From contig NZ_CP029773.1 of NCBI RefSeq assembly GCF_003205835.1, positions 528,501-592,500 of the forward strand: a stretch of DNA of 64,000 nt, written 5' to 3'. The DNA comes from Stenotrophomonas maltophilia (GTDB lineage: Bacteria > Pseudomonadota > Gammaproteobacteria > Xanthomonadales > Xanthomonadaceae). A model generated the notes under the pieces. It did not search any database, had not been told where the DNA came from, and worked only from the letters and a program-made list of their open reading frames with translations. Shown here piece after piece: positions 10,867-56,572 of this stretch (positions within the stretch are counted from its first letter, which is position 1; each line of letters opens with the position of its first letter). The position numbers and the translations under genes were made by a program.

Positions 10867-10972
10867 GGGGAGGCCCGGAGGCCCAGTCAGGACACGCCGT
10901 AAACCCATCCATGGGGGCTCGATGGCGCCATCCATGGCGCCAACGGTCCTGCCTGGGCCTCCGGGCCTCCCC
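10867..10972 (+). repeat. structured intergenic module E (plus orientation)
   Basis: Closing stem of 20 perfect pairs: 10867-10886 with 10953-10972 (left arm GGGGAGGCCCGGAGGCCCAG). An additional stem CAGGAC/GTCCTG lies inside it. The conserved core strand is at 10896-10921 (starts GCCGTAAACCCATCC, ends GGGGGCTCG). The inner hairpin TGGCGCCAT-CC-ATGGCGCCA is at 10923-10942. It is one of six related modules and faces module F. The 522-bp gap 10836-11357 otherwise holds only the rhlE terminator. Confidence 0.8.
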
Positions 10973-11127
10973 TCGACAATTTCCTGCGGGCGCGGATGCA
11001 TCGAACCCCAAGGCGGGAGCATGGGCAAAAGCAAAAGCATCGGCACTTGCTCTTGAATTTGAACTTGAATTTGATCTTTCTTCTCCCGGCTACCCGGCGG
11101 GACAAGAAGGCGCAGGCAATGCTTGAA

Positions 11128-11235
11128 GCGGATGGGCGTGGGGCCAGCGCAAAACCGTGAGGCGCATGGATGCGCCGACCGAGCCCCCATGGATGGGTTT
11201 ACGGCGTGTTTTGCGCTGGCCCCACGCCCATCCGC
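11128..11235 (-). repeat. structured intergenic module F (minus orientation)
   Basis: Closing stem of 28 perfect pairs: 11128-11155 with 11208-11235 (left arm begins GCGGATGGGCGTGGGGCC). The core lies on the minus strand at 11180-11205. The inner hairpin GGCGCAT-GG-ATGCGCC is at 11161-11176. It is inverted relative to module E 156 bp away. The stem sequence is unrelated to that of E although the core is nearly the same. Confidence 0.8.
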
Positions 11236-12773: not shown

Positions 12774-13130
12774 TGAGTTTGCTCCAAGTACAAGAAACGC
12801 CTGTCCGACTGGACAGACGGGGGCAGATCAAACTGATCGGCTGACTCGGAGCGTTCCCGTGAACCGCGCTGCGAGAATTGGGTGCAGCCGGCACGAAGCG
12901 CAGGCTGGAATGCGTGACGAACGGCGTCGGAGTGGGGGCGGGCGAAGAGGGCGGACCCAGGTCGCCGGCGGTCCCGGAGGGAAACGGACGGCCGCTGCAG
13001 ACCCTGCAAGTCTAAACGATGTTTGAGACTTCACGCAAAAAGGCCTGTTCAGGTAGGGGGTCTCTCTGCAGGGCTGCGCTCTGCACCTGCAGAGGCTGAA
13101 GCAACGTCAAAGGCCGGGTTCCTGTGGGTA

Positions 13131-13232
13131 GGCGGGGTGGGTCCGGTGGCAGGGGACGCTGCAAGTACGTCCATGTAAGCTCGGTCGCCGCATCCATGCG
13201 GCTCACGCCCCTGCCACCGGACCCATCCCGCC
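13131..13232 (+). repeat. structured intergenic module A (plus orientation)
   Basis: Closing stem 13131-13155 with 13208-13232 (25 nt, one mismatch). A diverged core strand follows at 13156-13187 (GACGCTGCAAGTACGTCC, then GCTCGGTCG). The inner hairpin CCGCAT-CC-ATGCGG is at 13188-13201, with the opposite internal-loop strand CTCACG after it. It is the first unit of the composite spanning 13131-13562. The gap 12774-13748 contains this composite and no gene I can support. Confidence 0.75.
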
Positions 13233-13266
13233 TTCGACAGTTTTCCGCGATCTGTCGGAACGGCTT

Positions 13267-13307
13267 GGGGTCAGATCCGTTTTCCTCCGGAAAACGGATC
13301 TGACCCC
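13267..13307. repeat. 41-nt palindrome, copy 1
   Basis: Perfect 19-nt arms GGGGTCAGATCCGTTTTCC and its reverse complement around a 3-nt loop (TCC). The same palindrome, differing only in the loop, is at 56276-56316 in the same relative position within a second composite. Confidence 0.9.
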
Positions 13308-13335
13308 GGAATTCCATTCGATATCTGACAGATTT

Positions 13336-13359
13336 CATCCACGCATGGCGTGGATCTAC
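13336..13359 (-). repeat. SMAG-type GTAG palindrome
   Basis: On the minus strand it reads GTAG followed by ATCCACGCCATGCGTGGAT. A GTAG head plus hairpin is the layout of the abundant S. maltophilia SMAG repeats. An identical copy lies at 56344-56367. Confidence 0.75.
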
Positions 13360-13381
13360 TGGCCACCGGCCCACTGTCGAA

Positions 13382-13562
13382 GGCGGGGTACTGTGGGTTT
13401 GCGGGGTGTGAGCGGCATGGGCCCGAGGCATGTCTCGGGCGGGTTGGGCCGGACGCCCAACCCCGGTCTTGCCGTGTGCGCAGGACAGCGCACACGAGCA
13501 AGCCGCGACCAAGCCCCCATGGACGGGTTTACGGCGTCCCCGCAAACCCACAGTGCCCCGCC
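13382..13562 (-). repeat. structured intergenic module B, long three-hairpin form (minus orientation)
   Basis: Closing stem 13382-13406 with 13538-13562 (25 nt, one mismatch). Inside are three hairpins: 13421-13440 (GCCCGAG/CTCGGGC), 13443-13461 (GTTGGGC/GCCCAAC) and 13468-13502 (CGTGTGCGC/GCGCACACG). The conserved core is on the minus strand at 13510-13535. The interior matches that of module C (56092-56220) but is inverted, while the closing stems of B and C are unrelated. Confidence 0.8.
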
Positions 13563-13748
13563 ATCCCACGGAATGCCCGCTGTTGCTGTTGCGTCGGCTG
13601 TTGCCTTGGCTTGAAGCAGGGGCAGGGCTGCAAGCCCTGCCAACCCCCCCACTACGGTAGGGTGGGCCGATGCCGCGCTGCAGCTTGGCGCCGCCGCAGA
13701 TTTGATTACACTTGAAACTTGTTTGCCCACGACTCCGGACACCCACCC

Positions 13749-55925: not shown

Positions 55926-56064
55926 CGTCGGCTTCGGATAACGGCAGAGACGCCTATTCTGCCAGCCCAGCCGGGGGGAGGGGTATCGGCAGGGCTGCGC
56001 CCTGCACCCGCCTCAAGCAACGTCAACTGCAACAGCAACAGCAAGAATGGGTTTCCTGGGAGAT

Positions 56065-56245
56065 GGCGGGGTGGGTCCGGCGGCAGGGGACGCCGTAAAC
56101 CCATCCTTGGGGGCTTGGTCGCGGCTTGCTCGTGTGCGCTGTCCTGCGCACACGGCAAGACCAGGGTTGGGCTTCCTGCCCAACCCGCCCGAGGCATGCC
56201 TCGGGCCCATGCCGCTCACACCCCTGCCGCCGGACCCACCCCGCC
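56065..56245 (+). repeat. structured intergenic module C, long three-hairpin form (plus orientation)
   Basis: Closing stem of 25 perfect pairs: 56065-56089 with 56221-56245. The core strand is at 56092-56117 (GCCGTAAACCCATCC, then GGGGGCTTGG). Three hairpins follow: 56125-56159 (CGTGTGCGC/GCGCACACG), 56166-56184 (GTTGGGC/GCCCAAC) and 56187-56206 (GCCCGAGGC/GCCTCGGGC). Then comes CTCAC, the opposite loop strand. The gap 55926-56572 contains this composite and no gene I can support. Confidence 0.85.
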
Positions 56246-56275
56246 TTCGACAGATTTCCGCGATGGACGATTTAT

Positions 56276-56316
56276 GGGGTCAGATCCGTTTTCCTGCGGA
56301 AAACGGATCTGACCCC
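56276..56316. repeat. 41-nt palindrome, copy 2
   Basis: Arms of 19 nt identical to those at 13267-13307; only the loop differs (TGC instead of TCC). Confidence 0.9.
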
Positions 56317-56343
56317 GGATTCAATTCGAGATCTGACAGATTT

Positions 56344-56367
56344 CATCCACGCATGGCGTGGATCTAC
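56344..56367 (-). repeat. SMAG-type GTAG palindrome, second copy
   Basis: Identical over 24 nt to 13336-13359 and in the same place between the 41-nt palindrome and the minus-orientation module. Confidence 0.75.
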
Positions 56368-56391
56368 CACCGTCACCGGGAAACTGTCGAA

Positions 56392-56493
56392 GGCGGGGCG
56401 GTGTCGGATTGCGGGGTGTCCGCGGCATGGATGCCGCGGCCAAGCCCCCAGGGACGGGTTTACGGCGTCCCCGCAATCCGACACCGCCCCGCC
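56392..56493 (-). repeat. structured intergenic module D (minus orientation)
   Basis: Closing stem of 25 perfect pairs: 56392-56416 with 56469-56493. The inner hairpin CCGCGGCAT-GG-ATGCCGCGG is at 56420-56439 and the core is on the minus strand at 56441-56466. Its stem differs from module B at several positions, with matching changes on both arms. Confidence 0.85.
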
Positions 56494-56572
56494 AAACCCA
56501 CAGAAAGCCCAGAGCCGGTTGTTGCCCTTGCTTTTGCCTCTGCGGGTGCAGGGCGCAGCCCTGCCGATACCC

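Follow-up and report, generated by a model that had tools for sequence, protein, structure and literature searches.

Does the likeness of two composite repeats in the chromosome of Stenotrophomonas maltophilia record the copying of one site into another, or do both repeats belong to a larger set, and what would such elements do? We address these questions for a 64,000-nucleotide stretch of contig NZ_CP029773.1 (positions 528,501 to 592,500, hereafter "the window"), in which a sequence-only reading had placed the copies at 13131-13562 and 56065-56493. Part order and coordinates were right for both, and the two hold one layout: a left hairpin module, TTCGACAG, a 41-nt palindrome, CTGACAGATTTCATCC with a REP, CTGTCGAA and a right module. 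Specifically, composite 1 consists of a left module (13131-13232; GGA strand minus) with a 25-bp P1 stem (13131-13155/13208-13232), the tail octamer TTCGACAG (13233-13240, plus), the palindrome GGGGTCAGATCC... (13267-13307), an SM4-class REP (13337-13359, reading GTAGATCCACGCCATGCGTGGAT on the minus strand), the inverted tail octamer CTGTCGAA (13374-13381, minus) and a right module with a 79-nt loop cassette (13382-13562; GGA strand plus). Composite 2 repeats the series as a left module with a loop cassette (56065-56245, minus), tail octamer (56246-56253, plus), 41-nt palindrome (56276-56316), SM4-class REP (56345-56367, minus), inverted octamer (56384-56391, minus) and right module (56392-56493, plus). 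The left module of composite 1 and the right module of composite 2 coincide with matches (G000 541636-541726:- and G000 584898-584988:+) to R1, a covariance model built on a cross-genus alignment of 53 sequences, a few of them from Stenotrophomonas. Both composites fold far beyond chance (z-scores -14.9 and -19.5; 100 shuffles each), with 24-25 of 25 bp paired in the module stems, and no transposase gene was present among the neighbouring genes examined, as the earlier reading had it.

Both composites also reach further out, to palindromes of the GCAGGGC..GCCCTGC type on each side. Composite 1 extends over about 13068-13641, between GCAGGGCTGCGCTCTGCACC (13068-13087; similar blocks stand outside many class I modules, by eye) and its right counterpart (13622-13641), and composite 2 over about 55988-56566 (outer palindromes at 55988-56008 and 56542-56566). 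A third composite that had gone unreported lies in the same window at 10874-11227, with other arm sequences and modules at 10874-10964 (minus) and 11137-11227 (plus; R1 matches G000 539374-539464:- and 539637-539727:+); at the equivalent position, the loci of 10 further close genomes also have a match for its right module (L074, L075, L078, L080, L081, L083, L084, L085, L088, L089).

Compared part by part, composites 1 and 2 are less alike than they first appeared. The 41-nt palindrome had been called identical in both; its 19-nt arms are, but one loop base differs. The supposed SMAG unit is indeed identical in the two copies, but its class is that of the SM4 REP (GTRGATCCACGCCATGCGTGGAT), SMAG proper being SM8 (available extract of Table 2 in PMC3686654). 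SMAG, known from the same genus and likewise of the REP kind (Roscetto 2008; PMC2613905, available passages), therefore differs from the REP of the window composites, and it is present in some outer flanks of modules. Over the composites as a whole, 301 of 346 aligned bases are identical, the arms of the right modules are of different families, and copy 1 carries the 79-nt cassette in its right module, whereas copy 2 carries it in its left. When copy 1 was used as a query, its unbroken full-length matches were other loci (85% and 83% identity), whereas its match to copy 2 was split by the cassettes. Simple duplication of one composite does not describe such a pair.

The orthologous sites in related genomes bear on the same point. 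For each site we fetched and compared the best 30 of 41 genomes, taking as close those with a flank identity of 94% or more (own genome included) and as distant those with 89% or less. The genes flanking site 1 are those for a DEAD-box helicase (minus) and a fumarylacetoacetate hydrolase (plus); site 2 is flanked by proS and a DUF4124 gene, both on the minus strand. At site 1, 14 of the 18 close loci were spanned, with 12 intact pairs and two deletion forms (L081, L082); the four unspanned ones comprise L084 (pair cut by a contig end), L085 (left module), L078 (ends before the site) and L089 (genome G021), in which an IS110-type transposase ORF (PF01548, PF02371) interrupts the left module inside its core. 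Eleven of the 12 distant loci were spanned there and held no pair, with one single module (L094), and in the unspanned L091 the site shows a 47.7-bit module whose partner falls out of view. At site 2, the 15 spanned loci among 19 of the close group comprise 12 intact elements and three deletion forms (L110, L112, L117), and the four unspanned ones (L106, L109, L116, L119) have module matches, some cut by contig ends; all 11 distant loci were spanned, none with a module. Summed over both sites, the element is present in 29/29 spanned close cases (24 intact, 5 deletion forms) and the pair in 0/22 distant ones. For the close relatives, this is the result that the earlier reading had named as speaking for old vertical inheritance and against movement. 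Because close genomes hold the element at both sites, we infer that both were probably filled before the close group split and not recently; the modules of two distant species at site 1 (L094, L091) make the age of the pair less certain.

These comparisons leave little of the proposal of a copying event, self-driven or not, from one window site to the other. That proposal would account for the shared order and orientation, the near-identical centre palindrome and the identical REP; we nevertheless hold it to be extremely improbable, since every spanned close genome has the element at both sites, intact or in deletion form, since the arms and cassette placement differ, and since both copies belong to a family of 47 pairs (below). 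A recent duplication between the sites, considered separately, is contradicted by the orthologous sites together with the differing arms and cassettes.

What changes at these sites is their content. Orthologues differ in arms, loops, cassettes and centres, and the right module of site 2 switches among three arm families (CACTGTGGGTTTGC, CGGTGTCGGATTGC and CGGTGTGGG..GGCAGGA) that also occur in paralogues of the own genome. Differing arm positions are mirrored in the opposite arm in 140/222, 113/189 and 227/302 cases in three module sets, and in 106/231 in a fourth (site 2 left) that includes a degenerate arm, all four counts being pairwise and thus not independent. By eye, L110 and L081 appear to have lost sequence between short direct repeats within the element; L117, where only the outer palindrome is left, looks like a deletion at a short repeat. 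Also by eye, a tandem duplication in the composite centre of L108 (G008, site 2) takes in the left half of the 41-nt palindrome. The pattern fits inherited positions whose contents may be exchanged among paralogues and which may be lost by deletion, and gene conversion from dozens of paralogues would then be the main source of new sequence.

The paralogues are numerous. A composite used as query gave 133 matches at E<=0.001 across the genome (4.89-Mb chromosome), and R1 gave at least 129 at E<=0.01 (best 150 of 3197 candidates scored). With 11 further modules found by arm complementarity, and neighbours less than 450 bp apart joined, the genome holds 140 modules in 93 loci, i.e., 47 pairs and 46 singles, some of which may have a decayed partner. 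All 47 pairs are tail-to-tail, with tails inward and GGA strands outward (0 tandem, 0 reversed), and the gaps between paired modules span 137-367 bp (median 186). This single order in 47/47 own pairs, together with 22/33 neighbouring pairs in loci mostly of other genera, bears out the view that the composite is one entity and not a coincidence of repeats. The centres are more varied: by exact match, a REP with core GTGTCGACCTTGGTCGACAC occurs in 23/47, the 19-nt arm of the 41-mer in 13/47 and SM4 in 12/47. The GTGTCGACCTTGGTCGACAC core is the commonest centre unit among those searched, and none of the four Y1_Tnp genes of the genome could be assigned to it as its RAYT.

The module itself has a regular anatomy. 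Read on the GGA strand, it runs P1, P2 with loop CATGGATG, a linker, AGC, P3 with loop CANGGAYG, CRGCG and P1', so that the P1 stem (25 bp in the window composites), variable in sequence with complementarity kept, encloses two small hairpins with loops of the A-N-GGA-Y type. Among 117 own modules of exactly 91 nt (out of the 129 R1 matches), the P3 loop always has its A and its GGA (117/117) while the N is free (64 T, 36 G, 15 A, 2 C); GGA is followed by C or T in 113, and the first loop reads ATGGAT with a single departure, at one position. In the plain sequence alignment (A1), by comparison, the invariant loop bases are partly imposed by the search pattern. Module ends are tails of the TTCGACAG/TCTGACAG type, and two kinds of optional loop cassette occur (about 79-80 nt). 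By eye, among the matches listed, class I elements carry outside P1 CAACAG/CAACGT-type repeats and a palindrome of the outer type described above, often shortly past a stop codon, and class II elements have a different outer block.

Pairing is maintained through sequence change. Compensatory changes occur at 26 of 34 pairs in the 53 cross-genus sequences. Across 131 matches (130 distinct), 94.5% of cells are paired vs. 62.2% when shuffled and 35.7-38.7% when slid, in an alignment that was fitted to the model. In the own genome, 57 of 110 stems are perfectly Watson-Crick over 22 bp, and where near-identical stems differ, 999 of the 1183 changes have a mirror change in the opposite arm (pairs not independent). 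By eye, the first and last bases of a four-base bulge, YUYR (columns 74-77 of the model-fitted alignment, A2), co-vary as C..G / T..A, and on the TCC strand the bulge reads as part of a GNRA-type tetranucleotide.

Neither the module nor its paired arrangement is confined to Stenotrophomonas. A core-pattern scan of named genomes matched at least 118 stretches, and the 80 matches listed include Xanthomonas, Marinobacter, Halopseudomonas, Methylotuvimicrobium, Idiomarina, Haliea, Oceanisphaera and others. In a class-wide sample of Gammaproteobacteria, R1 had one or more matches at E<=1e-4 in at least 51/276 genomes and 46/215 genera (best 15 candidates per genome scored). The 131 modules fall in 85 loci, mostly not from Stenotrophomonas, in which modules 450 bp or less apart are ordered -+ in 22 cases, +- in 5 and in tandem in 6; 22/33 compares with an expectation of one quarter (nominal p=5.5e-7, several loci sharing a genome). 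When a module from Samsonia was run by blastn against E. coli, 5 of 5426 genomes matched, with four of the five places on plasmids. The module found there is 91% identical to that of Samsonia erythrinae and occurs on four E. coli plasmids and one chromosome (e.g., NZ_CP058751.1), all from waste water or treatment plants. The module also presumably resembles ERIC primer sequences.

Is the module, then, an RNA that has already been catalogued? At gathering thresholds an Rfam search of the window returned no match; most low-threshold matches were to microRNA models and look like stem artefacts, and no relevant family came up at E<=0.01 when seven other loci were run through cmscan. Two families match one module on opposite strands at L046 1301-1426, and both recur in the own genome. 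TwoAYGGAY (RF01731) has 18 matches at E<=10, 18/18 on the GGA strand of modules, with a best score (41.3) that does not reach its gathering score of 43. Ysr224 (RF02770, Yersinia sRNA 224) has 87 matches at E<=0.01, 87/87 on modules and on the TCC strand, with a best score (46.6) that does not reach its gathering score of 70; 86 of the 87 span model positions 1-107, and one module aligns full-length. Ysr224 also matches one Marinobacter and one Xanthomonas module, weakly (25.3 and 18.6 bits) and once more on the TCC strand, and TwoAYGGAY had no match in these two at E<=10.

As in TwoAYGGAY, two hairpins with AYGGAY-type loops, a linker and a closing segment align over the full model; however, the second base of the module's P3 loop may be any base and not only Y, and the module is here a high-copy paired repeat, which the available passages of PMC2864571 (Weinberg 2010) do not describe. 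The loops of TwoAYGGAY match a CsrA-binding motif (PMC4333381, available extract). The core of Ysr224 is closely similar to that of the module, whereas its Rfam model leaves the module's long P1 stem unpaired (one alignment). In the extracts available, Ysr224 is described as multi-copy, with expression that depends on the copy, in Yersinia ruckeri, as responding to temperature in Y. pseudotuberculosis and as one of the top 20 most prevalent annotated sRNAs. The module is a known kind of element, of which the multi-copy state and prevalence of Ysr224 are already published. As judged from the matches in this genome, the RF01731 and RF02770 models cover the two strands of a single element type, which suggests one family catalogued twice. 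For the composite family itself (the paired architecture in 47/47, the opposite-strand Rfam pair, the cross-genus repeat nature and the strand asymmetry), we found no description in the open-access literature.

That strand asymmetry speaks to the molecule on which selection may act. Under selection for a DNA cruciform, a G-T read on one strand appears as an A-C on its complement, and no preference for either strand would arise. We counted G-U pairs and A-C mismatches in P1 on the GGA strand, with the register set by Watson-Crick pairs only. The ratio was 115:15 for 85 of the 123 modules whose flanks were long enough, 42:5 for the 49 stems left after deduplication by similarity (p=2.5e-8) and 35:11 for 110 own modules (p=5e-4). 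Modules chosen by loop pattern alone, before any model, gave 60:12 (55 modules), or 23:6 in 32 stems once deduplicated (p=0.0023), and the plain alignment A1 gave 58:34. Column composition alone predicts 3.27:2.90 per module, about 1.1:1. The count on A2 (131:29) was set aside, as that alignment favours G-U. The inner stem P2 has no G-U excess in own modules (1:3) or in A2 (7:8), and A1 gives 11:2. Since G-U outnumbers A-C in P1 on the GGA strand, the element appears to be selected as RNA: the excess points to a single-stranded GGA-strand nucleic acid, with RNA the simplest reading. Single-stranded DNA of one strand is a possible, less simple source, and strand-biased mutation through transcription is another candidate that would also require transcription in that direction.

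Single-stranded DNA is what a transposition mechanism would supply, and the family could be a REPIN-like non-autonomous transposon, spread by a Y1/HUH transposase through single-stranded DNA hairpins with the tail octamer in the role of the REP head. Like the BIMEs and REPINs with RAYTs described for Stenotrophomonas (PMC2817692 and PMC3686654, in the parts available), the composites are mosaic intergenic repeats built from inverted palindromes with complementary changes preserved, and SM4 and other REPs sit within them. An inverted hairpin pair that has a conserved tail on one side, dispersal in 47 copies, REPs inside many centres and the G-T over A-C excess, which strand-specific single-stranded DNA could also yield, are what such a transposon might be expected to show, and the search for RAYT genes elsewhere that the earlier reading had proposed did find four Y1_Tnp (RAYT-type) genes in the genome. 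However, three of these are flanked by the REPs SM8, SM11 and SM2 and the fourth by none of the REP classes searched, and no R1 module match lies within 6 kb of any of them, bar a weak 18.3-bit one over a REP pair; carriage of the modules by a RAYT was accordingly rejected for want of a strong match by any Y1_Tnp gene. An SM4 REP lies near the SM11-flanked gene (L013). Unlike REPs and REPINs, the modules are about 100 nt long with a conserved core and lack the GTRG head, only the central unit being a REP (SM4). Positions common to close species and the lack of a definable target duplication also count against transposition, which we consider improbable. A comparison with MITEs found the outer palindromes inverted and no clean empty site in a close genome. 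An autonomous form, in which a gene would separate distant - and + modules, was also sought and rejected: the three candidate loci contain ORFs of ordinary appearance or a fragment of IS110 type. Such a fragment (PF01548) lies between two own-genome modules at L295 1962-2369.

Gene 3' ends adjoin the loci more often than 5' ends do. By gene calls from a simple codon-usage script trained on 13 window ORFs, both neighbours were called at 87 of the 93 loci, which are convergent in 32 cases, co-directional in 46 and divergent in 9 (convergent vs. divergent, p=4e-4; the divergent exceptions include site 1). Of 180 neighbours, 113 have their 3' end towards the element (p=8e-4), at a median gap of 89 bp as compared with 157 bp for 5' ends. 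Together with the strong stems, this bias and the excess of convergent over divergent sites is what would be expected if the element were only a bidirectional 3'-end device, with hairpins that stop exonucleases and dampen read-through, no specific RNA-binding partner and GGA loops kept for the fold. Such a device is possible, but we think it unlikely to be the whole account, as a plain structural cap does not need the invariant A-N-GGA with its free N in the second loop, and as the 9/87 divergent sites lack an adjoining gene 3' end.

We lean, with modest confidence and from sequence comparison, towards reading the composite as an intergenic mosaic in which two widespread gammaproteobacterial RNA hairpins stand tail-to-tail round REP or other palindromes, and which would be read through into RNA at gene 3' ends and possibly bound by RsmA/CsrA. 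The selected molecule would be RNA read through from a neighbouring gene, and given the opposed directions of the two modules, transcripts entering from the left or the right would each carry exactly one GGA-oriented hairpin. That hairpin may cap and stabilise the RNA 3' end, and its two A-N-GGA loops could dock RsmA/CsrA, which prefers a C-ANGGAN-G hexaloop. Presence of CsrA in 50/51 model-positive vs. 191/225 model-negative genomes (Fisher p=0.009; lists compared by eye) is a weak association, confounded by genome reduction. The annotation of Ysr224 on the TCC strand is in tension with the GGA strand as the selected one, and in composites the module closest to the stop codon of the upstream gene is encountered in the TCC sense, which counts against the GGA-strand reading. 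More speculative, and in our judgement rather unlikely as a whole, is an extension in which the paired hairpins form a dispersed RsmA/CsrA sponge or docking array (more than 100 hairpins here), with one GGA hairpin per read-through direction, uniformity kept by gene conversion that replaces both arms, and RF01731 and RF02770 as its two strands.

Under the mosaic reading, two separately catalogued RNA families would be linked as opposite strands of one interspersed repeat, whose paired architecture is fixed here and often kept in other genera, and whose strand asymmetry argues for selection as RNA. The functions of TwoAYGGAY and Ysr224 would become testable (e.g., RsmA binding, 3'-end protection), and the family would offer a case of concerted evolution at fixed intergenic positions.
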